Assembly (NCBI GenBank): GCA_000702085.1
Contig: JNKP01000001.1
Coordinates: forward strand, 682,001 to 746,000
Source: Lachnospiraceae bacterium P6A3
Lineage (GTDB): Bacteria > Bacillota > Clostridia > Lachnospirales > Lachnospiraceae
Direction of reading: 5' to 3'
Length of the DNA: 64,000 bases
Shown: positions 51,008-64,000 of the stretch, in pieces
How positions within the stretch are numbered: position 1 is the stretch's first letter
Layout: each line of letters starts with the position of its first letter
The notes under the pieces: generated by a model
The model's database searches: none
The model's input: the letters and a program-made list of their open reading frames with translations, nothing else
Told to the model about the DNA's origin: nothing
Program-made: the position numbers and the translations under genes

Positions 51008-51985
51008 CTATTTGTTCTTAGCAAGTACACCGAATCGGTGCTTCATTAATTCCGACATGCCTTCCTTCATATCGCCCGGAAGGAAACTTTTCTCCAGCTC
51101 ATCAAGTGCCATATCCTCAAGTCCCAGAAATTTCTCCATTATTTTCTTGGATGCAATAGGATTTATACCCAGTCCATCAGCGTATGTAAGGAAGTCTTTA
51201 CGAGTCAGGTTCCGCTTCTTACCGTTAAGAGGAAGCGCCGTTTCTTCGGTATCCTCAGGCATCACCAGATTTACCGGAAGCAGATCATACGCAGGCGATA
51301 AAACGAACTTCCTGCTTTTTGCCTTAGTCTCAATCAACGAAAAATTCTTCAGATGCATATCCGAATTCCCGGTAAGATAACAATAAAGCAGCCTCATGTA
51401 CAATTCCGAAGAATCTATTATGGGATTGGATGAATACTGCATTAATATCTTTCCAACCTTTTCGCAGGAACTCTTATATTTCTCCTGAGTCAGTCTCTGC
51501 CCCAGCTGGCAGAAATCTTCCATGGCAAGCATCTCTGTTTTGCCGGAAGATGTAACTCTGTCCACCCTCTTTGTGATATATGCATATGAAGAATCATCCT
51601 TGTCATGAAGCCTCACAAGAGCGCAGGGCACTGCCTTGATTCCGAATTTCAATGCCAGCTTCATAACGAAATGCTCTGCTTCAGGTAATGCTCTGAAGCT
51701 CTCACTCTGAGGCTTGAGGATATATCCCGTAGGATAGTCCACCATAGTGAGTCTGGGTATTCCGTCTTCCTGAGACAGGTGAAGCGACAGCTTCTTCTGA
51801 ACCCCCGGTACAGTAAGTCCTTTGTTAACAGTCTTGACTACAAGAGCTTCCAGTTCGGCATTACTGACATCTATGTCAGGCATACGGTCTGTTTTAAAAA
51901 AAGACCGAATACACTTTGAATGCCACTGAATCTTGTTCTCTTCACCTGACGTATTTAACTGTTCTCCGCAAAACAAACAGTACAA
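51008..51985 (-). CDS. hipT: HipT, HipA-like serine/threonine kinase toxin
   Basis: 325 residues. CLFCG (C3, C6) with WHSKC (22-25) forms a small zinc-like knuckle. TVPGVQKKLSL near 58 corresponds to the regulatory Ser/Thr loop of HipT (SIS in E. coli O127). KPQSESFRALPEAE near 92 binds ATP, LTGNSDMHLKNFSL near 210 is the catalytic loop and SPAYDLLP the magnesium site. The N-terminal subdomain of HipA is missing here and is encoded by hipS. HipT of E. coli phosphorylates tryptophanyl-tRNA synthetase. TTG start at 51985, preceded by GGAGGA and the hipS stop. Confidence 0.88.
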   Translation of the reverse strand: MYCLFCGEQLNTSGEENKIQWHSKCIRSFFKTDRMPDIDVSNAELEALVVKTVNKGLTVPGVQKKLSLHLSQEDGIPRLTMVDYPTGYILKPQSESFRALPEAEHFVMKLALKFGIKAVPCALVRLHDKDDSSYAYITKRVDRVTSSGKTEMLAMEDFCQLGQRLTQEKYKSSCEKVGKILMQYSSNPIIDSSELYMRLLYCYLTGNSDMHLKNFSLIETKAKSRKFVLSPAYDLLPVNLVMPEDTEETALPLNGKKRNLTRKDFLTYADGLGINPIASKKIMEKFLGLEDMALDELEKSFLPGDMKEGMSELMKHRFGVLAKNK

Positions 51986-52324
51986 TTATTCTCCTCCGCG
52001 TACAGCTACGTCACCTATGCAATCCTCACAGCATACAAGAAGCAGACCGAATCTGTCCGCAACATCAAGCTTCCAGTTTCTGGCTGACAGATCAAGCAGC
52101 CACCCTTCCGGAATCAAACCGTCAAAAAACGGAAACAGAATATCCGATTTATATTCCTCTTCCCTGCAGGGCATATTTATACATACGGGCAGTGGATTCT
52201 TCGATTTCAGATACTCTTTGTCATAAGTAAAAAGATACCCTTCATCGGTTTCTTCGATCACACCTGCAAATCTGTCTTGAACATATACTCTTCCAAAACG
52301 AAAACCGGTATTACTGTCCTTCAT
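51986..52324 (-). CDS. hipS: HipS, HipA N-subdomain-1-like antitoxin
   Basis: About 112 residues matching the N-terminal subdomain of HipA: GRVYVQDRFAGVIEETDEGYLFTYD and FPFFDGLIPEGWLLDL. In the three-gene HipBST system this separate protein, not HipB, neutralises the kinase HipT. The ATG at 52324 overlaps the end of hipB by 14 bp; the stop TAA is directly followed by the hipT TTG. The frame is open upstream but those residues are in hipB and unlike the family. Confidence 0.82.
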   Translation of the reverse strand: MKDSNTGFRFGRVYVQDRFAGVIEETDEGYLFTYDKEYLKSKNPLPVCINMPCREEEYKSDILFPFFDGLIPEGWLLDLSARNWKLDVADRFGLLLVCCEDCIGDVAVRGGE

Positions 52325-52529
52325 TCTTCTTAATATCCAACTCTCCCGGAACGGCCTGCATTCCGAACATATATAAAGCCTGATTAACCTTATCGAGTCT
52401 GACAGTTTCCTTGCCCTGTTCAAGTTCACGCACAAAACGAAGACCCAGACCGGAACGAAGTGCAAATTCCTCCTGAGTAAGATGTGCTTCTTTTCTTTTT
52501 TGCTTTATATATTCACCTATTATGTTCAT
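52311..52529 (-). CDS. hipB: HipB, XRE-type DNA-binding protein
   Basis: 72 residues with a helix-turn-helix KEAHLTQEEFALRSGLGLRFVRELEQGK (about 12-39), the HipB pattern. There is no ribosome site before the ATG at 52529, while TATAAT lies at 52539-52544; the transcript would start about three bases before the ATG, so it is probably leaderless. It should bind the palindromes around 52.55-52.66 kb and repress hipBST, and help hold the complex together. Confidence 0.85.
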   Translation of the reverse strand: MNIIGEYIKQKRKEAHLTQEEFALRSGLGLRFVRELEQGKETVRLDKVNQALYMFGMQAVPGELDIKKNEGQ

Positions 52530-52539
52530 GAATACAATA

Positions 52540-52558
52540 TTATACCTTATCGGGTATG
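52540..52558. promoter_or_regulatory. hipBST promoter/operator O1
   Basis: TATACCTTATCGGGTAT is an imperfect inverted repeat (ATACC/GGTAT) overlapping the hipB -10 box. A near copy in reverse orientation (TATACCTTTTCGGGTGT on the minus strand) is at 52593-52609. The spacing resembles the TATCC-N8-GGATA operators of E. coli HipB. Confidence 0.6.
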
Positions 52559-52580
52559 ATATCAAGAGAAAAGAAATAAA

Positions 52581-52638: not shown

Positions 52639-52666
52639 GTTTTTATACCCTATAGGGGATAAAAAC
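52639..52666. repeat. 28-bp near-perfect palindrome (operator-like O3)
   Basis: GTTTTTATACCC-TATA-GGGGATAAAAAC has only one mismatched pair. It lies two bases after the rubredoxin-flavoprotein stop codon. Its CCC/GGG core and flanking TAT/ATA echo the other two hip operator-like sites; it could be a third HipB site or a transcript-end hairpin. Confidence 0.6.
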
Positions 52667-52667
52667 A

Positions 52668-53297
52668 TCACTCCACCATCTCAAAATCACTTGCAGGATG
52701 CTTACAGATAGGACAGATAAAGTCATCCGGAAGCACAGGGCCTACATATTCATAACCGCAGATCTTGCAGCGCCACTTGTGAACGCCTTCGGGAAGCTTG
52801 TTCTCTGCAGGTGCACTCGAAGCCTTAGGCTTGATATTATCCTGATAATAGGCATAGGTTGCGGAGGGAGCGCTCGAAAGGACAACCATATCCGTGGGAA
52901 CACCGATAAACAAAGTGTGGGATCCCAGATCGACAGTCTGCGTTACATCAATTGAAAAGTAAGCATTAGTCCCCTTTGTAATATAGGGTATACCGTTCTC
53001 TGCTCTCTTATAATCCGCAAAGCCTTCGAACTTGTTCACATCCCTTCCCGTCTGAAAACCGAAATGCTTGAACAGATCAAATGCCGCCTCTTCACTGATA
53101 ACGGAAATATTTGCTTTCCTGGATTCCATTACAAGATCATGGGTGTAGTTAGCTTTATTTATTGCAAAAGAAATCTGATTGGGATCCGAGGCAACCTGAA
53201 TGGCGGTGTTTGTAATGCATCCGTTTTCTTTATCTCCGGACTTGGCGGTAAGTACGAACAATCCGTATGACAATTTGTACATTGCTTTGTTATCCAT
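52668..53297 (-). CDS. Flavin reductase-like protein with C-terminal rubredoxin (high-molecular-weight rubredoxin)
   Basis: 209 residues. Residues about 1-155 are a flavin reductase-like FMN-binding domain (SYGLFVLTAKSG, CITNTAIQVASDP). Residues about 172-206 are a rubredoxin with KWRCKICGYEYVG and ICPICKHPASDFE, giving the four cysteines for one iron. This Hrb architecture feeds electrons from NADH to flavodiiron or peroxide reductases in anaerobes, so oxygen/peroxide defence is likely. ATG at 53297 has an AAAGGAGG site. Confidence 0.9.
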   Translation of the reverse strand: MDNKAMYKLSYGLFVLTAKSGDKENGCITNTAIQVASDPNQISFAINKANYTHDLVMESRKANISVISEEAAFDLFKHFGFQTGRDVNKFEGFADYKRAENGIPYITKGTNAYFSIDVTQTVDLGSHTLFIGVPTDMVVLSSAPSATYAYYQDNIKPKASSAPAENKLPEGVHKWRCKICGYEYVGPVLPDDFICPICKHPASDFEMVE

Positions 53298-53315
53298 GGC
53301 GCCTCCTTTAGACTA

Positions 53316-53678
53316 TTATCTGCTAAACAAATTATTCAGGTTCTCAACGCTCTCTTTCAGTCCTTCAATAGATTCATTAAGCGCATCAACATCCAGAGAG
53401 TTAATCTTCTCCATCGCTTCAGACACATCGGACATCGCACTTGCGGTACTTTCATCTATGCTTTGAATTGTCTCCGAAAGCTTCAGAGTTGTCAACTGTT
53501 CCGAAACTTCCTGCATGTTATCAAGAGTGGTCTGAGCCGTACCTATAAGTCTTACTGCCTTAGGTACGATCACAAGTGCACATATAAGAAGAATCAGGAA
53601 TGTCAAAACAGAACATCCCGCGATGATCATGGTGAAAAAATATGTGCCTTTGGTGTATTTTATGTTCTCACTTTCCAT
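53316..53678 (-). CDS. Small membrane protein with C-terminal coiled coil
   Basis: 120 residues: one transmembrane helix (about 16-40, FFTMIIAGCSVLTFLILLIC) then a heptad-patterned acidic coiled coil (about 45-118) rich in Leu, Glu and Ser, similar to DUF948-like or chemoreceptor-stalk proteins. No function can be assigned. It lies 18 bp upstream of the rubredoxin gene and may be co-transcribed. The ribosome site (AAGG) is weak. Confidence 0.65.
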   Translation of the reverse strand: MESENIKYTKGTYFFTMIIAGCSVLTFLILLICALVIVPKAVRLIGTAQTTLDNMQEVSEQLTTLKLSETIQSIDESTASAMSDVSEAMEKINSLDVDALNESIEGLKESVENLNNLFSR

Positions 53679-53711
53679 TATACATAACCTTCAAAAATCC
53701 GAATTTTATAT

Positions 53712-53737
53712 TTTGATAATCTATAAAAAGTGCCCGC
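53712..53737. repeat. Left 26-bp inverted repeat flanking the precursor-like gene
   Basis: TTTGATAATCTATAAAAAGT and the following GCCCGC match, in inverted orientation, the repeat at 53918-53943 in 23 of 26 positions. It lies between the precursor-like gene's stop and the 53.3-kb gene. Confidence 0.75.
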
Positions 53738-53771
53738 CTAAACAAAAAGAGAAATCAGTCAGTTCTAAAAG

Positions 53772-53900
53772 TCAAGGATGATCGTTTTCGTAAATGGACT
53801 TTACGCAATGTCCGCCCTTGCAGGAGGACGCTTCATCAGCATTGCTGTTAACAGTTATGGAAACTTCAATGGTCTTAATCTCAGGCTTCTTATAACTCAT
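53772..53900 (-). CDS. Candidate RiPP precursor peptide, 42 residues
   Basis: A short frame with an excellent GGAGG site six bases before its ATG at 53900 and a TGA at 53772-53774. The peptide begins MSYKKPEIKTIEV, a charged leader-like half, and continues with NSNADEASSCKGGHCVK, so the only two cysteines lie four apart in the second half. It follows the radical SAM enzyme by 38 bp. By size, position and layout it looks like the substrate of the PqqD/SPASM pair; the class (thioether sactipeptide/ranthipeptide or other) cannot be fixed. Similarity to known precursors was not recognised. Confidence 0.7.
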   Translation of the reverse strand: MSYKKPEIKTIEVSITVNSNADEASSCKGGHCVKSIYENDHP

Positions 53901-53917
53901 AATAACCTCCAATCTAA

Positions 53918-53943
53918 GCGGACACCTTATATAGATTATCAAA
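53918..53943. repeat. Right 26-bp inverted repeat flanking the precursor-like gene
   Basis: GCGGACACCTTATATAGATT and ATCAAA pair with the left repeat at 53712-53737 with three mismatches. It overlaps the stop codon of the radical SAM gene (53939-53941). Confidence 0.75.
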
Positions 53944-55030
53944 CAAACCTTTGCAATATTTCATCGGAAGGAACATTATTCCTGTAGTAGTCCTCCCTGG
54001 CCAATGCATATTTACAATCATCGGCACATCTGTAAAAAATATCTCCGCAGACAAATTCCCTTTCCGCCGGGCACACATCACAATATTCACGTGCGGTACA
54101 AGACCTGCATTTATTATCCTCGGGGAATTTCATCTTCTTGTATTCGGCATATGATTCCCAAATCTCATCAAAGTTATCACATGTCAGTTTACGTCCGTGG
54201 TGTCTGAGCCTCATACAGGGACACATATTACCGTTGTAATCAATCACAAAACTTGAGATACCGATCTTGCAATCATATATGTACGGATAGGAAATCGCTT
54301 CTTTACGTTCTCTGTCAATTCCATCCGTTTTATTCTTTTCATGCTCACTTATTTCGTAGCTTAAAATATCCTTTACTGATAACTGCCTTTCCTTGGATGC
54401 TTCATCTCCGTCAATAATCGGGATAATCTCAAAACTGGGTCTGAAAAGAATACCCATATCCGAAGCCACCTTTTTCATGGCATCAATCTCACCATAAGTT
54501 TCTTTCATAATGGGAGATTTAAATGCTATACGGATCCCGGATTCTTTGATCTTCCTGCAGTTATCAATAACTTTAGTGAAAGCACCATCAATACCGGTGA
54601 TCTTCTTGTAGGTTTCATCGCAGCTTCCGTAAAGGGAAACGTCTACCAGAATCGGCGGATACTGTTTTAATACATCAATTATTTCATCATTAAAGAGAAA
54701 GGCATTCGTAAACAGCTCAACGAAAAATCCCTTTTTCTTGGCATAAAGATATATTTCCAAAAAATCTTTTCTGGTGAGTATTTCTCCGCCTGTAAGAGTG
54801 ATGAACAAAATACCTTTATCGTGGAGAATATCAAGAATCTCAAGAACCTCTCCGGTAGATAACTGAGTCTCGGAGTGGCTTTTCTGAAGATAACAATGAA
54901 TGCAATTCATATTGCATTTGGGAGTAAGTTCAAATATGGCAGAATAAGGCTTTCTGTCTCGTTCCCAGTTCTTCCTTCTGTCGGAATCAAAATCCAGAAT
55001 ATTATTGATCAGAGTCTCGGCGTATTCCAT
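53939..55030 (-). CDS. Radical SAM/SPASM peptide-maturation enzyme (PqqE-like)
   Basis: 363 residues. CNMNCIHC (residues 39-46) is the CxxxCxxC motif binding the SAM iron-sulfur cluster; LTGGEILTRKDF near 80 is the GGE motif. The C-terminal SPASM region has MCPCMRLRHHGRKLTC near 275 and CRSCTAREYCDVCPAEREFVC (about 318-338), enough cysteines for two auxiliary clusters. Such enzymes modify ribosomal peptides, for instance by thioether or carbon-carbon bonds. It directly follows the PqqD gene (TAAATG) and precedes the candidate precursor. Confidence 0.9.
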   Translation of the reverse strand: MEYAETLINNILDFDSDRRKNWERDRKPYSAIFELTPKCNMNCIHCYLQKSHSETQLSTGEVLEILDILHDKGILFITLTGGEILTRKDFLEIYLYAKKKGFFVELFTNAFLFNDEIIDVLKQYPPILVDVSLYGSCDETYKKITGIDGAFTKVIDNCRKIKESGIRIAFKSPIMKETYGEIDAMKKVASDMGILFRPSFEIIPIIDGDEASKERQLSVKDILSYEISEHEKNKTDGIDRERKEAISYPYIYDCKIGISSFVIDYNGNMCPCMRLRHHGRKLTCDNFDEIWESYAEYKKMKFPEDNKCRSCTAREYCDVCPAEREFVCGDIFYRCADDCKYALAREDYYRNNVPSDEILQRFV

Positions 55031-55324
55031 TTAATAATTCCCCTCAACAAACCCGTCCTTCAGCAGGCTATTCAAAAATGCGTTAACATCCGACAATATC
55101 TCATCAATAGAGACATCATCCGTTATAGCCTTTTTTATGGAACCTGCAATATCCGATGCCGTGTTTTTTCCATCAATCATATTCCAGATATAGTTTCCGA
55201 TTTCATTGATCTCATACAGTCTGCACTTATCATCGGAATAGTTCTGGGTAATGTCTATCAGGAAATACGAATCATGCACCGTTCTGGCAACAATATTGGG
55301 TTTCTTGTTAACTATCAATTCCAT
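55031..55324 (-). CDS. PqqD-like RiPP recognition element protein
   Basis: 97 residues matching the PqqD winged-helix fold: YFLIDITQNYSDDKCRLYEINEIGNYIWNMIDG, followed by a helical C-terminal part (about 60-95, with LLKDGFVEG). These proteins bind the leader peptide and bring it to the radical SAM enzyme. Its stop codon abuts the start of that enzyme gene. Confidence 0.88.
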   Translation of the reverse strand: MELIVNKKPNIVARTVHDSYFLIDITQNYSDDKCRLYEINEIGNYIWNMIDGKNTASDIAGSIKKAITDDVSIDEILSDVNAFLNSLLKDGFVEGNY

Positions 55325-57010: not shown

Positions 57011-58624
57011 TTACGCTTCTGTAACGACGAAACGCTTTGGTGCTCTTATATGAAAATCCATCACTATAGCTCTTTTTTCAATATCCGATAGCGCCCTGTT
57101 GTACTGCACAACAAACTCGCCGTTGCAGTAATTAAACAAAACCGCTCCATGATATTTGCTCTTTTTTTCGGAATTGATAAACGGATTAGTCATTATATGA
57201 TCTCCGCGAATCACTCCGTTTTCCAATCCGCTGCCTATATATGCAAGCCTGTTTCCATGTAATTCAAATACTCCGACAAGAGGTTCATTATCGGAAAACA
57301 AATCGGCCTTTTCATTACCGGATTCACATAATGCGTTTTCCAGTATAAGGGATTTGCATTCATTAATGTTCCGGATAACCGATTGAAGCTTACCTTCATT
57401 ATGCAGCTCGGTAAGGTTCAATATAAGCCTGGGCGTTATAGGATGAATTTTATTGGGATTAACATACTCATCATTTATTTCGCACGAAGCATCAACCAGC
57501 ATATATAAAAGATCAAGCAAATCCTCATCTTCCGAATAATAATTCTTCAGCACGTCCAGGAGTCTCCGATACATTCTTATAATAATTCTGTTAAGATCAC
57601 TGTGTTTTTCAAAGAATGTATTCAGATAACCAATTGAAATAACCGTATCATCATTTATCTCCGAGACCGATATATCATTATCAATACGAGGTCTTAACCG
57701 TTTACCGATACATATATCTCTCAAAATGTCGCCAATAAGTGCCTTAGCATATTCTGTATAAGTTCTTTCAATCCTTTCTCCTGATACGGTAATCGCATAG
57801 GGTTTGACATATGAATGAGCCTTGTCCGCAGTTTCAACATTAATCTTATCTTCCTCAATCCGGTAATTATATAAAGGATTCACCTTTTCAAGAAATTTTG
57901 TTGTTCCGTCTATAATCGCTTCAATCTGCCGGTTTTTGATTATGACAGGACATATATTGTTATCATCATCAACCACCGTGCCCAGAAATTTAGCATTACA
58001 TATTACTTCCAGTCCGGTATCGACATGGTATTCAGCATACACTCTGTCAGATCCCAGAAATGAAAGATATATTATCTTCTTTGCCCTATCAACGTCCAGT
58101 ATCGTATTGTACCTCTCGGAAATAGTGTGATTGGAATATGAATTATTACAAAGCACCCCGGTGAACTCCGAAAAAGGCATATTCATAGCATTTTTACAAT
58201 GTGCACACTTGAAATAATTCTTTTCATTTATTGTAGCTACATAATATATATAGTCATTCATCAAATATGCATTCGGAAGAAAACGGGCCACTGCATTCAT
58301 GGACTCGTAAACCCAATCCGGCACCTCATTTTCATTCAAAGTATCAAACATTTCCTTCGAATTACCAAACTTGAAAAAACCGGAAAGTCTCGGAACCAGA
58401 ACTCCAAGAACACTGCGATAGAGTTCATGAGATGTTAACTCACCACCTTTATATTCCTTAAACGCATTTGTGATTCCGTGAAAAGTCTTATCATCAACAT
58501 ACCCCAGCAATGTGTAATAAACCAGAAATGCCTGGAAATGCATCGGTCCGTAATCCGAGCAGTTTTTTACGCTCAATTCAAATGTAAGGCCATATTTAAG
58601 GCAGTCACCTGCTCGCATAAGCAT
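57011..58624 (-). CDS. Unknown 537-residue protein
   Basis: No family was recognised. It appears soluble: no signal or clear transmembrane helix. CAHCKN near 140 is an isolated cysteine pair. The C-terminal part (about 455-530, VGVFELHGNRLAYIGSG and FNYCNGEFVVQYNRALSD) looks beta-rich, like a small regulatory fold. GGAGGTGAG precedes the ATG at 58624. It ends 33 bp before the lipoprotein gene and begins 13 bp after the VirD4-like ATPase gene, so it is most likely in one operon with it. Confidence 0.6.
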   Translation of the reverse strand: MLMRAGDCLKYGLTFELSVKNCSDYGPMHFQAFLVYYTLLGYVDDKTFHGITNAFKEYKGGELTSHELYRSVLGVLVPRLSGFFKFGNSKEMFDTLNENEVPDWVYESMNAVARFLPNAYLMNDYIYYVATINEKNYFKCAHCKNAMNMPFSEFTGVLCNNSYSNHTISERYNTILDVDRAKKIIYLSFLGSDRVYAEYHVDTGLEVICNAKFLGTVVDDDNNICPVIIKNRQIEAIIDGTTKFLEKVNPLYNYRIEEDKINVETADKAHSYVKPYAITVSGERIERTYTEYAKALIGDILRDICIGKRLRPRIDNDISVSEINDDTVISIGYLNTFFEKHSDLNRIIIRMYRRLLDVLKNYYSEDEDLLDLLYMLVDASCEINDEYVNPNKIHPITPRLILNLTELHNEGKLQSVIRNINECKSLILENALCESGNEKADLFSDNEPLVGVFELHGNRLAYIGSGLENGVIRGDHIMTNPFINSEKKSKYHGAVLFNYCNGEFVVQYNRALSDIEKRAIVMDFHIRAPKRFVVTEA

Positions 58625-58637
58625 ACACTCACCTCCA

Positions 58638-60308
58638 TCAATCTCCGGCTATGATATCATCCAATATTTCATTCAATTCATCCAGATTAACATCAATTTC
58701 TCCGCCATCCCTCGAGCCTTCATTCATCGATTCGGCAAATCTGTCTTTCAACTCGCGTTTTCTGCGTTCTTTCTTGTTCTTCTCCGAATTCATTAACACG
58801 CTCATGATAGAATCGATCTTTTCATCATGCATTTTTTCAACAGCCTTGGAAAAGAGTCCATGTTCCACAACCAATCGTGTTCTCTTGGGAATATCTGCGG
58901 TATCCGAAAGCCCGGGTATTTTACACTGTGAAATGTCCGGCAAATATGTAATATAAGGATAATTTCTGTCCAGCAGCATTAATGCTTCCCCTTTATCCTT
59001 ATTAAGATGTGTCAACCGATCCGGGCTGAGTAAAGGTCTGAGTTCCCTGGTATAGGGATCGATAAGTTTACCGCATCTCTCGCTGATCATCTCCACAAGT
59101 TTTATGTCCGTAGAGGATAAATAAACCAGATTCTGCGAATTACCGACTAAGACTTTTGCCATTTCTTCCGAATAAGTCAGACAAAGCTGGGCAAGACTCT
59201 GCAGTACCAGAACCATCCTGATTCCACGGCTTCTTGAAGCAGTCATATAGTCATTAACATTAGAAAGCTTTGCAATATTGCCGAATTCTTCAAGTATGAA
59301 ATGTACCGAATTCGGAAGGCGATTGTCTTTCCTTTTTTGTGCTTCATCAATCAGGATGCTGTATATGGAATCTATCCATGCAGCAACTATGGTGCTATAA
59401 GTCTGAGGTGCCTCATCACGGGTAATGATGAATAGCGCAATCGGTTTAGTCCCGGAGACAAAATCCGTAATTTCAAAAGTGGATTTCGTTAACAGATCAC
59501 CTATTTCCTCATTTAATGTTATTCTGGAAAGTCCATTCGTGAAAACCGAGAATATGGAAGATCGGGTCTCATTCGGTGCTGTTATCGACGGAATCCCCAG
59601 TTCGTAGCAAAGATCATTTTTATGCTGTTCCAGATACATCAGCATTTTTGTCTTATCTCCCATCTTCTCCAGTCCTTCGATATGGACACGGTATATGGTA
59701 GATAATGTCACGAATTCCGGATCATACAATGTAGCAGCAATGACGAAGTAACATGAAAACAGGCAAATACTGGTCTGAGTCCAGAACATATCGTCCTTAT
59801 CTTCCAAAGGTTCATAAATCGACTGAGCTATACCTCTGACAATTTCAAGTGCACGTCCATGCTGTCCCGCTTTATACAGTTTCGCAGGATATTCAAGAAT
59901 ATTTAACCGGTCGCCCTTCATGGGATCTCTGAGATTAAGGACTCTGACATCATATCCTTTTTTAGTCAGAAGAGCCTTATAAAAAGAATACAATTCACCC
60001 TTGGGGTCATGTACCACCATGCTTTCTCCTGCAAGAGTGCATGACAGCATATACATGGACAGGACTCGTCTTGTTTTACCGGACCCGGTCGAAGATACAA
60101 TAATAGTATTGGTATCATTTCCATCAAGCCAGAATCCGGTAACATTTCCGTCCTTATCATATTTGGGGATAATACATAATCCGGCTTTATAATTGAAATC
60201 CTGTGTGTACATGTTTTCAAAAGAAACTTCGGAATATGCTTTTTTTATCTCATCATCCTCCGCAAAGCGGCTGTTATTCGCATTAGGATCAACAAAGTAT
60301 TTACTCAT
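58638..60308 (-). CDS. VirD4/TraG-like coupling ATPase, soluble form
   Basis: 556 residues. Walker A is VSSTGSGKTRR near 71; VVHDPKGELY near 99, Walker B VHFILEEFGNIAKL near 340 and VLQSLAQL near 373 are hallmarks of type IV coupling proteins. The N-terminal membrane helices of VirD4 are absent, so membrane attachment would need a partner. Such ATPases feed DNA or protein substrates to a secretion channel. No relaxase, VirB4 or VirB6 gene is visible in the window. The neighbours are unrecognised, so a specialised protein-export role or part of a larger element is possible. Confidence 0.85.
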   Translation of the reverse strand: MSKYFVDPNANNSRFAEDDEIKKAYSEVSFENMYTQDFNYKAGLCIIPKYDKDGNVTGFWLDGNDTNTIIVSSTGSGKTRRVLSMYMLSCTLAGESMVVHDPKGELYSFYKALLTKKGYDVRVLNLRDPMKGDRLNILEYPAKLYKAGQHGRALEIVRGIAQSIYEPLEDKDDMFWTQTSICLFSCYFVIAATLYDPEFVTLSTIYRVHIEGLEKMGDKTKMLMYLEQHKNDLCYELGIPSITAPNETRSSIFSVFTNGLSRITLNEEIGDLLTKSTFEITDFVSGTKPIALFIITRDEAPQTYSTIVAAWIDSIYSILIDEAQKRKDNRLPNSVHFILEEFGNIAKLSNVNDYMTASRSRGIRMVLVLQSLAQLCLTYSEEMAKVLVGNSQNLVYLSSTDIKLVEMISERCGKLIDPYTRELRPLLSPDRLTHLNKDKGEALMLLDRNYPYITYLPDISQCKIPGLSDTADIPKRTRLVVEHGLFSKAVEKMHDEKIDSIMSVLMNSEKNKKERRKRELKDRFAESMNEGSRDGGEIDVNLDELNEILDDIIAGD

Positions 60309-60326
60309 TTCCCTGTTTTCCTTTCA

Positions 60327-61151
60327 TTACATGTTAAATCCTATCCTTGCATGTTCGTTAGAATCCCGAGTGTTAGAAATGTTATTGCAAAGAGTCCTCA
60401 TCGAAGAAGATAAAACAACATAATTGCTTTTATCATTCGAAACAGATTCAACAACCATCCTGTCCATCAAAACATTCAACGACTGGTATCCGGAAAAGCT
60501 CTTCTTTGAGATCACAGCGGGTATAAGCTGTTCTTTAAGGAATGTTTCAGCTTCTTTATCAAAGGAGATCTCTTTATGTTTCATTTCGGTGACCACATAA
60601 TCAAAGCTCTCGTTCACCCCGGGTTTATCCAGTATCACTTCCATAACCGGAAAATGTTCCTGAAGTGTAGATACCAGTTTATCTTTTGCTTTAAATTTGC
60701 TTGAAACATGGAAGATAAATCTTATATTTTCACGATTCATATCACAAAATTCCAATAATCTGCGATACGATTCACTATTTATAAGGTCATCGCCATCATA
60801 CTCCGCAAGGGAAACCAGCATGGTCCCGTAAAATCTGTTGGTTGTTGATGCGGATCTTGACGGACTGGAAAAGAACAACGCTTCATTCTCCGCACTTCCA
60901 TTCGGAAATACGAGATTTATATAATTCGTGCTGCCCTTACTTATATGATCAATTGATTCGGAAACTATCTCGGAATACTTTTTTCCGAAATAAGATAATC
61001 CATATAAATCATCAGTTAAAACGACAGTTGCAAAAACAGATTTACGAACTGCTTCAGAGTCCGAATTCAGTATTTTCTTTGTTTTTTCCAATATGGCTCT
61101 CGTCGAATCCGTATACATCATTTCATTAGTATTCTTTTTCCGTCTTCCCAT
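60327..61151 (-). CDS. AAA-like protein lacking a P-loop
   Basis: 274 residues. A central strand pattern (FYGTMLVSLAEYDGDDL near 108, ENIRFIFHVSSKF near 140) and a helical C-terminus (AETFLKEQLIPAV near 210) resemble the middle and lid of CbxX/SpoVK-type AAA proteins. No Walker A glycine-lysine loop exists; the equivalent place reads NGSAENEA. It may be a regulatory or scaffold subunit that lost ATPase activity. This assignment rests on faint similarity. AGGAGG precedes the ATG. It lies 18 bp upstream of the VirD4-like gene. Confidence 0.5.
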   Translation of the reverse strand: MGRRKKNTNEMMYTDSTRAILEKTKKILNSDSEAVRKSVFATVVLTDDLYGLSYFGKKYSEIVSESIDHISKGSTNYINLVFPNGSAENEALFFSSPSRSASTTNRFYGTMLVSLAEYDGDDLINSESYRRLLEFCDMNRENIRFIFHVSSKFKAKDKLVSTLQEHFPVMEVILDKPGVNESFDYVVTEMKHKEISFDKEAETFLKEQLIPAVISKKSFSGYQSLNVLMDRMVVESVSNDKSNYVVLSSSMRTLCNNISNTRDSNEHARIGFNM

Positions 61152-61185
61152 GCTGCTCCTCCTCTCAACCCGCCATCTGTAATCA

Positions 61186-62235
61186 TCACTGTTCGGATAA
61201 ATACAGTTTTATCCTTCGATAATAATCGTATACTGCTTCCTCGGCATATTCTCTTGCATCTTTTTCACACTTCTGACCATAGTATTCCTCAAATTCAGCC
61301 CCATTCTCACAACTTTTATAATCATCAAATTCCTGAGCATACAGGCTTGCGTCATACAGGAAATACGATTCCCGGTCCTTCGTTCCCAAGCTCTCATAGA
61401 TTTCCACATATCTGTGTTGTGCTGCATGAAACATTTCATGGCAAAGAGTATCCAGTGTTTCTCTCGGAGGATCATTCATCAATCTTTCCTCCGATATGTA
61501 TATTGCTGATTGAGAATGCTTATAATATCCGCATGTATTTTCCGGCATATCTTTAACATATATAGATACTTCATCCTCAATGCCAAGATAATTTCTCTCA
61601 ATTCCGGCAATGCACCTCAGCACATCCAATCGTTCATCTTCATCCAATTTATCCCACTCTTCGGGCTGAAGTAATAAGACAGTGTCGATATTTGCTGCTA
61701 TCGTACAAGTATCCTCTTCGGACGTTGAAGTATGTTCAGTGCGATTGATCCATTTACTCACATAGTTTTTACCGAACAGAGAAAGCATCACCACAACAGA
61801 TGCCAAGGTACATACCATCCGCAATGTCAAATATGTCTTTTTTGTACGATACATTTTCTCATTTGTATTTTCAGAGGAGTCAAAGTCCGATATCTGGATA
61901 AAACAAACGGAAATAATAATGACAAATACAGTTGCAAGGATAATTAACCGGAATAACTTCGGCATCATGCCGGCACAGGTTATATAAGCATATATTCCAA
62001 GTGGAATCAGCAGAGATGATACAATCGTAAAAGTACATCTCCTCCAGTTATATGCAAGCTTGGTATGCAGCAGCCAGGAAACTGCAACCATCAGGAGCAG
62101 TATTATCCATGATCCGGTAACTGTTTTACCATCCAAGCATTTAAAAAAGAGGTTGTTATACCATATCAGTGCAATTAATCCCCAGATAATCGATTCCGCA
62201 TAATAATTTTTTTTAGTCAATGAATTGTTGCACAT
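61186..62235 (-). CDS. Membrane-anchored putative zinc metallopeptidase
   Basis: 349 residues. Five or so hydrophobic helices occupy about 14-170. The C-terminal domain has LCHEMFHAAQH near 268, an HExxH zinc-peptidase motif, with downstream acidic residues (NGAEFEEYYGQ) that could complete the site. SIYVKDMPENTCGYY and ETLDTLC precede it. It could process a substrate of the neighbouring export ATPase, but that is inference. AGGAGGG precedes the ATG at 62235. Confidence 0.65.
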   Translation of the reverse strand: MCNNSLTKKNYYAESIIWGLIALIWYNNLFFKCLDGKTVTGSWIILLLMVAVSWLLHTKLAYNWRRCTFTIVSSLLIPLGIYAYITCAGMMPKLFRLIILATVFVIIISVCFIQISDFDSSENTNEKMYRTKKTYLTLRMVCTLASVVVMLSLFGKNYVSKWINRTEHTSTSEEDTCTIAANIDTVLLLQPEEWDKLDEDERLDVLRCIAGIERNYLGIEDEVSIYVKDMPENTCGYYKHSQSAIYISEERLMNDPPRETLDTLCHEMFHAAQHRYVEIYESLGTKDRESYFLYDASLYAQEFDDYKSCENGAEFEEYYGQKCEKDAREYAEEAVYDYYRRIKLYLSEQ

Positions 62236-62270
62236 ATAGCACCCTCCTTTTGATTTATTTATCAGTCCGC

Positions 62271-63119
62271 TCAGCCGTATTTCTTCATATTGTTCATGAT
62301 CTCCCTAATACGATTGAACCGGACCGCCTTACCGGAATTGAGAAATCTCAAAGCCTCAATCCTTTTATTCATCGGATATGTTCCTACATATTTCATTGCC
62401 CAATTCGTAAATCCGATTTTTTTCTCATTCAGATCTTTTCTCGAAAAAGGATGAACCGAATGTAATCTTTCTATAACAAAATCCGCATCATAAGCCGGAG
62501 TATCAGGTTCAGATATTTCCAGACAAGTAACCAGTTCATCCGAGACATCCTCCGAATTGGTCTTTATCGGAGGCAGACTTCCGACAGCGCTTCCGCATGG
62601 AAAAAATCTTACTCCGGGTATATCCGGATCCCCCAAAGCCACGGCAAAGCTGAAAGGAATATCATTATGAGCACGATCAAACGGAAGAGAGTATTCCACA
62701 TTGTGTTCTTCCAGGTATTCGTCCAGCTCTTTTTCATAAAGGCATTTCATTTCATAGTACTCATCAAACGTATTGGTTCTCACATAAGCCATCAGTTTAT
62801 TAATCATAAGCCAGGCTGTCGGCATATACATCCAAGGTATAAACATGCCCTCAACGCTTGCACAAAGTGTATTATCCTCATCAACCCTGAGATTGAAGAT
62901 AACCCCTCCCTCTTCAAAAATCAGAAGGAATGAATTGTCGTTATACAGCGATTCCTGCCCGCCGGTTAAGCCATATTTCAGTATATTTTTGTTATGTCCG
63001 AATAAGATTTTTTCTATGCATTTTTTACTGCCTTCGGGTAACTCTTCCGGCCAGAAAACACTGCATCCTTCATCATTTTCCATAGAAAAGAAGCTTGAAT
63101 ATTTGATCATGTAACTCAT
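62271..63119 (-). CDS. Unknown 282-residue protein
   Basis: Not recognised. It appears soluble, with a mixed alpha/beta first two thirds and a basic C-terminal third (FSRKDLNEKKIGFTNWAMKY, NKRIEALRFLN). An AAGGAGG site precedes the ATG at 63119, which lies 13 bp after the stop of the upstream gene. Its style (SSFFSMENDEG at the start, Pro- and Asp-rich middle) resembles the next protein upstream, so both may belong to one structural set. Confidence 0.55.
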   Translation of the reverse strand: MSYMIKYSSFFSMENDEGCSVFWPEELPEGSKKCIEKILFGHNKNILKYGLTGGQESLYNDNSFLLIFEEGGVIFNLRVDEDNTLCASVEGMFIPWMYMPTAWLMINKLMAYVRTNTFDEYYEMKCLYEKELDEYLEEHNVEYSLPFDRAHNDIPFSFAVALGDPDIPGVRFFPCGSAVGSLPPIKTNSEDVSDELVTCLEISEPDTPAYDADFVIERLHSVHPFSRKDLNEKKIGFTNWAMKYVGTYPMNKRIEALRFLNSGKAVRFNRIREIMNNMKKYG

Positions 63120-63132
63120 TCTTTTAGCCTCC

Positions 63133-64000
63133 TTAATCCGTTTTATATCCCAACAAAGAGTATCTTTTTCTTATACGCATTTCTTCGAGCATCAATCTGT
63201 CCATTGAAACAGTTCCTTTGAAGAAGCGTTTCGAGCTTCTTAACACGCGATTATCTCCCGGCTTTTGAAGAATCCATTCGTAACTTTGCTGCTTCCTGCT
63301 CTCTTTATTAAATCTGATCAACAGATTCATCGATTCGTTCATAGATTCCTCGTGAGTATTCACATCAGCCTGTGTTAAATAGTTCATGACCGCTTCGAAT
63401 GAATCCGGCACATCATAATGTTTAGACGGATCATAATATTCATTAAATAACGCTTTCCCATAAACGGTTAATCCTTGTGCTTTATGTAATATCATTTCGG
63501 AATTGGGACCGAATACGCATCCGTATCCAAATTCATGATGTCTGATATCGGTTATTAGTTTTTTGAAAGCATCCGTGTTCAGTTCATCATTCAGAGGATA
63601 CTCATCAACGGGCAGTAACGGGTTTAAATTGTCTTCTATGTAATATCCGTCCTCCAAGCATTCTCCATCCAGGTAAAAACCATTCTTATAAATATCGATC
63701 AGAAGATCCGGGACGGCATATATTGCTCTGTTATCATTTCCTGAATACGAATATCCTCGTATCGAATAAATAGGCCTCCCCACATAATCCTCTCCGGGAG
63801 AAACAACCTGACAGGCAATAAATGTTGAATCTATCTTCATGAAAAAGACTATTTTCTCCCAGTCTATTGATTCTTCATCCCTCAATCCATCACGCAGAAA
63901 GATGAACTTCTGAATCAAAGGATAGAATTCACCCGGGAAGGATTCAGGTAACAGTTTCCAGCAGTAATCTGTCCTGAGATCTCTGCTGTATTCAAATAGG
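63133..64000 (-). CDS. Unknown protein, 5-prime end outside the window
   Basis: The reading frame is open from the window's right edge (64000) to the stop at 63133, at least 288 residues. A TTG at 63918 could be taken for a start, but the frame continues upstream without an ATG or a ribosome site, so the true start is outside. No family recognised; it has acidic and aromatic-rich segments and a basic C-terminus (SSKRFFKGTVSMD, MRIRKRYSLLG). Confidence 0.55.
   Translation of the reverse strand, partial: LFEYSRDLRTDYCWKLLPESFPGEFYPLIQKFIFLRDGLRDEESIDWEKIVFFMKIDSTFIACQVVSPGEDYVGRPIYSIRGYSYSGNDNRAIYAVPDLLIDIYKNGFYLDGECLEDGYYIEDNLNPLLPVDEYPLNDELNTDAFKKLITDIRHHEFGYGCVFGPNSEMILHKAQGLTVYGKALFNEYYDPSKHYDVPDSFEAVMNYLTQADVNTHEESMNESMNLLIRFNKESRKQQSYEWILQKPGDNRVLRSSKRFFKGTVSMDRLMLEEMRIRKRYSLLGYKTD

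Follow-up and report, generated by a model that had tools for sequence, protein, structure and literature searches.

A probable radical-SAM RiPP locus in Lachnospiraceae bacterium P6A3 and its sparse candidate precursor subfamily

What do a PqqD-like gene, a radical SAM gene and a very short open frame, found side by side in the genome of Lachnospiraceae bacterium P6A3, produce together, and is the short frame a gene at all? We addressed this question in a window of 64,000 nucleotides (contig JNKP01000001.1, positions 682,001 to 746,000), the whole stretch of DNA that was analysed and the one to which coordinates refer unless another contig is named. All three genes lie on the minus strand, and open-frame and Pfam analysis confirmed the places that a sequence-only reading had given them. 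The leading gene (55031-55324) encodes a PqqD-like RiPP recognition element (RRE) of 97 aa (PF05402, E 1.5e-11), which would be expected to hold the leader peptide, and its stop codon abuts the start of the gene for a radical SAM/SPASM maturase of 363 aa (53939-55030; PF04055, E 1.8e-25; PF13186 SPASM, E 1.5e-5). The precursor gene (53772-53900), encoding the 42-aa peptide MSYKKPEIKTIEVSITVNSNADEASSCKGGHCVKSIYENDHP, starts with an ATG at 53900, 38 bases past the enzyme's stop codon, with a GGAGG ribosome-binding site (53906-53910, minus strand) five bases ahead of it; the annotated stretch begins at 53712, 60 bases beyond the precursor's stop codon. The peptide is built of a YxKP leader half, an SSCKGGHCVK core and a C-terminal YxxD tail and has two Cys only, at positions 27 and 32, which bears out the earlier description of a GGAGG-led frame with two Cys and a CKGGHC motif.

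Scanning the species-genome collection with a pattern filter led to five confirmed loci, one of them close. This close locus (L001), from the Lachnospiraceae MAG RUI091, has the same order of PqqD, radical SAM and precursor genes as the window, plus a second precursor in tandem; its two peptides, MHYSKPEMTKIVVDVKVNTNACETGSCAGGHCVKTRYAQDP and MKYEKPEIKELVVSVKVNTNACQLSSCDGGHCVKSRYAGDP, are both encoded behind the enzyme and are 56% (first) and 63% (second) identical to the window peptide, with the cores CAGGHCVK and CDGGHCVK vs. CKGGHCVK in the window. The third codon position held the most differences of the three, both when the L001 copies were compared with the window (22 of 45 and 27 of 47) and when they were compared with each other (22 of 40). 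Once the window's His41 codon had been dropped for a gap-free frame alignment, dN and dS were 0.36 and 1.65 between the window and the first copy and 0.26 and 1.80 between the two L001 copies; for the window and the second copy dN was 0.31 and dS was not computable. With dN well below dS and an excess of third-position differences, the small frame is very probably a real gene, translated and under selection. In favour of a chance open frame, beside an enzyme that acts on something else, it can be said that frames this short abound in any DNA and that scans with the window precursor matched no family, whether in NCBIfam and Pfam (E up to 1) or in PHROGs (E up to 0.01). Against such a frame stand its good ribosome site and the three homologous peptides known from two genomes, as does a YxKP-led counterpart 21-142 bases behind the enzyme in 4/4 loci with an enzyme match to the window of 1e-60 or better (window included); loss or disruption of the small frame beside the enzyme in relatives, which the sequence-only reading had named as refuting, was thus looked for and not found. 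This explanation, rejected on the codon comparison, strikes us as very improbable.

The two more distant of these four loci, L071 (in genome G034) and L073 (in genome G1027), encode the precursors MKYEKPDFSEVEVSTTQNTVDSSGKEGASQCSASCCWGEGCWWA (L071:9357-9491) and MSYSKPMVEKISLEVKGNKAEMSADGPSKCSSSCCFYRDGATW (L073:4728-4859), which share the YxKP leader and carry different cores, CSASCC and CSSSCC, respectively. Across the five precursors (window, two from L001, L071 and L073), YxKP stands at the start of every one (YKKPEI in the window), Asn at position 18 is invariant and a C-x4-C motif lies in each C-terminal half (CKGGHC, CAGGHC, CDGGHC, CSASCC and CSSSCC); the conservation of CxxxxC that had been anticipated for relatives is thus present in 5/5. 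The aligner paired CKGGHC with CWGEGC of L071 rather than with the CSASCC/CSSSCC-type motif, each L001 peptide and the L071 peptide having a second C-x4-C, and the register between the GGHC and CSxSCC core types appears uncertain. Ser is likewise retained in every core and Asn18 in every peptide, so that Cys is not the sole candidate for modification. The GGHC His and the YxxD Tyr are conserved among the three close peptides, but not in those of L071 and L073. Because the GGHC core is common to the window and L001 only, the close core family amounts to three peptides from two genomes, and the CxGGHCVK pattern searched at the DNA level was found in 1/391 genomes of the class, the own one. Nine viral contigs with the same DNA pattern were judged chance matches, no frame with such a leader being present.

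The leader has published counterparts. YxxP is described as a characterised recognition sequence for the RREs of lasso pathways, and W/Y/LxxP/L/I as one for several groups of the PqqD type, PQQ and a sactipeptide among them (PMC12710340). Among Shine-Dalgarno-led small frames around 36 enzyme loci, YxxP occurred within the first 24 residues in 12 of 95 near-enzyme frames vs. 2 of 78 opposite-strand frames (Fisher p 0.022). Leaving out the four frames of the own family weakened the YxxP excess to 8/91 vs. 2/78 (p 0.11), and the wider motif [YWFL]xxPx[ILMVF], again without those four, gave 13/91 vs. 3/78 (p 0.03), suggesting that this leader type may be common to more distant enzyme loci too. 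A likely counterpart of the putative recognition domain stands before the enzyme in the relatives too: by alignment, the PqqD-like stretches of L001, L071 and L073 are 51, 20, and 32% identical to that of the window. For neither L073 nor L071 did Pfam give a PqqD call; their PqqD-like stretches were linked by blastp (L073-L071, 3e-7; L073-L001, 2e-5), which covered L001, L071 and L073, the window frame having been compared by alignment alone. In L071 a single open frame holds both the PqqD-like stretch and the enzyme, and in L073 a 391-aa frame ends with the stretch.

The sequence-only reading had also described the enzyme as carrying CxxxCxxC and many SPASM Cys, and this holds across relatives: in a four-row alignment the three Cys of CxxxCxxC (C39/C43/C46) and seven more (254, 272, 308, 311, 317, 320, and 339) are invariant, the seven being, as judged from the alignment, the full SPASM set. 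The L001 enzyme is 49% and those of L073 and L071 are about 37% identical to the window's by blastp (36 and 34%, respectively, in the alignment). In a 36-row enzyme tree the window joined L001 (97/87) and L071 joined L073 (96/91), both pairs sitting inside a 14-row set (100/99), and no starred branch backed the four as one clade. The enzyme scored under the cut-off for each of the best 25 of 68 NCBIfam families matched. The nearest solved structures by sequence were SkfB (3.3e-17) and PqqE (5.3e-7), and an AlphaFold2 model matched the fold of SkfB at rank 1 and of the streptide enzyme SuiB at ranks 3-7, a coarse fold match only, as the model is weak (mean pLDDT 61.5, residues 296-352 mostly under 50). 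Taken as such, these matches point to an enzyme of the peptide-modifying SPASM kind, one that would be compatible with thioether formation.

Close enzymes are sparse among relatives. With the own genome included in all counts, an enzyme match of 1e-40 or better was found in 2 of 397 genomes of the family (the own one and G034), in 3 of 392 genomes of the order (these two and G1027) and in 1 of 31 genomes of the own genus (the own genome only). Relaxing the family list to 1e-25 gave 46 genomes, those beyond the own one and G034 at 7e-40 or weaker, and some enzyme match occurred in 23/31 genomes of the own genus, the best outside the own genome reaching only 7.9e-19. The genus of G034 gave 1/35 at 1e-35 and the family of G1027 1/48 at 1e-40. 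Searches with the four-enzyme alignment found 2/293 relatives at 1e-60 and, in the phylum, 4/398 at 1e-55, three of these (G1280, G1309, and G1381) being a different system. They were rejected as family members, having a 29% identical enzyme and a different precursor. Their loci (L089, L090, and L088, respectively; three genomes of one genus) encode 61-aa precursors behind these enzymes, with YVKP or YVQP and the C-terminal core C[AS]NxxRTHxGxxCFS, and the gene adjoining the precursors is one that we take to be HPr-kinase-like. A phage or plasmid origin was likewise rejected, since no close relative of the enzyme was found in viral contigs (three loci at 23-25% in one search, none in another), in phage records (9 records, 19.8-28.8% identity) or in plasmids (333 records, all <60% identity; the best 10 of 333 at 25.8-29.3%). 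A plasmid search with the precursor gave nothing at E 1.

Taken together, the sequences show a conserved and apparently selected precursor gene, which in each of four loci accompanies a PqqD-like stretch and an enzyme, as well as the leader motif and the cluster Cys. The earlier proposal of a RiPP locus with the small frame as substrate is supported by this conserved precursor and its pairing with the enzyme. Given a selected precursor with YxKP leaders, and YxxP being a published PqqD-type recognition sequence, we consider it highly likely that the locus specifies an RRE-guided radical-SAM RiPP in general, and we lean, with clearly less assurance, toward the full statement that includes thioether chemistry. 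The PqqD-like protein would bind the N-terminal half of the precursor via YKKPEI and present it to the enzyme, which would oxidise the C-terminal half with a 5'-deoxyadenosyl radical and two auxiliary iron-sulfur clusters. In the likeliest product, Cys27, Cys32 or both would be joined through one or two thioether cross-links to carbons of the nearby backbone or side chains, within or immediately ahead of C-x-G-G-H-C-V-K. Host factors, none of them recognised in the locus, would then cut off the leader and release the peptide. The Pfam scan of neighbours revealed no exporter, leader peptidase or immunity gene, and a C39 peptidase search gave 0 matches in the own genome and was positive in 8/14 control genomes, so that leader removal and export would rest on unrecognised factors. 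The three genes directly upstream of the locus had zero Pfam matches at E 1, and exporter or immunity functions could therefore hide there.

The chemistry is where other readings compete. It is conceivable, at perhaps one chance in a few, that the enzyme performs some other radical chemistry on the precursor, such as C-C or C-O links, desaturation of His31 or epimerisation of residues, with the Cys used later in a disulfide or thiolactone. Enzymes of streptococcal RaS-RiPPs are described as making Lys-Trp, Arg-Tyr and ether links, and GRC subfamily products as containing a Cys thiolactone and didehydrohistidine (PMC13361665); the conservation of the GGHC His and the YxxD Tyr among the three close peptides also speaks for this reading. 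The L071 and L073 peptides keep Cys but neither that His nor that Tyr, and the nearest solved relative is a sactisynthase, both of which weigh against it. A less probable proposal, which we regard as unlikely, is that the mature peptide is a small intracellular metal-binding or redox peptide with a C-x-[GAS]-[GS]-[HC]-C site fixed in one radical-SAM step, and not an exported antimicrobial. Its appeal lies in the interchange of His and Cys before the second Cys of the five cores, of a kind frequent in metal ligands, and in the want of a recognised exporter, immunity gene or C39 peptidase noted above; the ambiguous core register, with CKGGHC aligned to CWGEGC of L071, tells against it, as does the finding that the scanned neighbours yielded nothing recognisably metal-related.

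The sequence-only account had suggested that this may be a new RiPP class, which as stated finds no support: known radical-SAM RiPPs have the same type of leader, PqqD-like domain and type of enzyme. What defines a RiPP class is the chemistry that is installed, and since a sequence does not reveal its chemistry, a new class is unproven. In one version of that reading, which seems to us unlikely, if somewhat less so than the metal or redox peptide, a single radical-SAM enzyme would make a new small ring or metal site out of the C-x4-C core ([HC] ahead of the second Cys) of a mobile-island peptide; the islands also encode a HerA-type ATPase or Hsp70 machinery, and the peptide may work with that machinery rather than as a stand-alone bacteriocin. 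The RRE-guided RiPP remains our preferred reading, and with it a putative new, tiny and sparse precursor subfamily of radical-SAM RiPPs.

The locus appears to sit at the end of a genomic island. DNA of the relative G017 matches window positions 52663-53661 at 83%; identity ends at 53661, which places the left edge of the island somewhere within 53662-53771. In G017, 0.7 kb of other sequence follows before DNA that is 78% identical to positions 774228-774563 of the own contig, and the two matching blocks are 38.6 kb apart in the own genome; right of the second block, the stretches compared gave no further G017 match. The simplest reading would be an insertion of about 38.6 kb in the own genome whose left end carries the RiPP genes, a deletion in G017 being the less simple alternative. 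GC content is 43-48% in the intervals between 44 and 52 kb and 36-42% in those beginning at 53 kb, and it does not mark the exact edge because the fall starts inside a flavin-reductase gene, outside the island. Longest common words at the island ends were 10 bases and were not taken as attachment repeats. Beside the island edge, a gene with a HipA N-terminal domain (PF13657) lies at 51008-52565; the adjacent frames presumably encode the remainder of HipA and a protein of the helix-turn-helix kind, making a HipBA toxin-antitoxin locus possible there.

The island encodes a TraG-like ATPase, two AAA proteins, a HerA-type ATPase, methyltransferases and a radical SAM protein with a weak B12-binding match. 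A run of minus-strand genes at 57011-63918, part of the island, includes a TraG/VirD4-like ATPase at 58638-60308 and several proteins with no Pfam match above cut-off. The conjugative element guessed from the TraG-like gene was dropped, as no relaxase or recombinase was found in the 21 of 36 island frames that were Pfam-scanned, and the matches of defence models were only to the AAA proteins and the TraG-like gene. Outside the window, in the same 38.6-kb stretch (L070:12497-13840, own contig C1:760497-761840), a small peptide with two Cys, MENKKEKLVKIVINNKEKMSGCPQGKLNNDYGTPGPKCK, directly precedes a radical SAM gene whose 392-aa protein is 29% identical to the window enzyme. Mobility genes accompany the relatives: a tyrosine integrase lies 0.6 kb (L001) and 0.9 kb (L073) before the first RiPP frame, an integrase-like frame lies ~15 kb off on the same contig in G034, and two genes that we take to be resolvase-like lie 11-14 kb downstream in L073. 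The L073 stretch (G1027:C59:389-19112) is itself island-like, with RiPP genes, HerA, Hsp70 and a TPR protein flanked by the integrase and the two resolvase-like genes. HerA of the own island is homologous to that of L073 (31% over 546 aa, 5e-60), and Hsp70 is common to L073 and L001 (40% over 521 aa). Beyond HerA, blastp at 0.01 between the own and G1027 islands returned only the radical SAM enzymes and a weak flanking-gene match. That the RiPP genes may go with HerA or Hsp70 island machinery is a lead only. Second radical SAM genes, related to each other (26%, 7e-27), lie 0.8 kb downstream of the RiPP genes in L001 (4609-6170) and 2.5 kb downstream in L071 (11991-13346), the former preceded by a small frame ending CNCNCNCDQN.

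Since the locus looks like island cargo, a role of the peptide in competition or signalling between bacteria seems more likely than housekeeping. The analysis adds a candidate subfamily of precursors, each paired with a dedicated enzyme and recognition domain, that is unnamed by the models scanned (NCBIfam, Pfam, PHROGs) and hosted by Lachnospiraceae and a second family from that order. The precursor duplication in L001 and the contrast of CxGGHC with CSxSCC under one leader type offer a ready test of which residues are joined. If the chemistry is new, it would extend the SPASM enzyme repertoire; if it is ordinary thioether chemistry, the locus would be one more rare, island-borne RiPP.

How, then, does the locus compare with known systems? 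That it fits none of SCIFF, streptide or PQQ, as had been suggested, is supported. The RaS-RiPPs are streptococcal radical-SAM RiPPs described in 16 motif-named subfamilies, including SSH, CGx, CGG, GRC, and NxxC (PMC13361665), and share with the window locus a short precursor, a small conserved core motif and an adjoining radical SAM enzyme. Unlike them, the window locus has a separate PqqD-like gene, and its precursor has no NCBIfam match at E 1. For the SSH model (NF050043), the window, both L001 and the L071 precursors matched 0 families at E 1. It was matched weakly (E 4e-4, 20 of 45 bits) by the precursors of two further loci, L040 and L057, which are YxKP-led with CSGCSTH and CRCSGSSTH and come from genomes of the Lachnospiraceae family rather than from streptococci. 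Lasso and PQQ pathways share a PqqD-type recognition domain and a YxxP leader motif with the window locus (as described in PMC12710340). Neither a transglutaminase-like protease nor an Asn-synthetase-like cyclase of the lasso kind was found among the neighbours scanned (Pfam; 21/36 island frames), and the PQQ models stayed under cut-off (PqqE, 69.6 of 381.35 bits; PqqD, 21.2 of 46 bits). Ranthipeptides (PapB type; SCIFF), whose clusters are described as common in rumen Bacillota_A (PMC13289728), likewise have a SPASM radical SAM enzyme and a Cys-containing substrate; the PapB model gave 55.8 bits vs. a cut-off of 340, the window precursor has two Cys and not the six of SCIFF, and the SCIFF maturase model was absent among the best 25 of 68 NCBIfam families matched by the enzyme. 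Membership of PapB, SSH, PQQ, and lasso systems was accordingly rejected, the model scores being below cut-off or the features not found. As for the sactipeptides, the enzyme lies far under the cut-offs of their models (AlbA, 74.6/850 bits; SkfB, 67.5/300; StsB, 58.1/625), yet it is matched by all three, SkfB is its nearest solved relative, and the core, like theirs, contains Gly and Cys.
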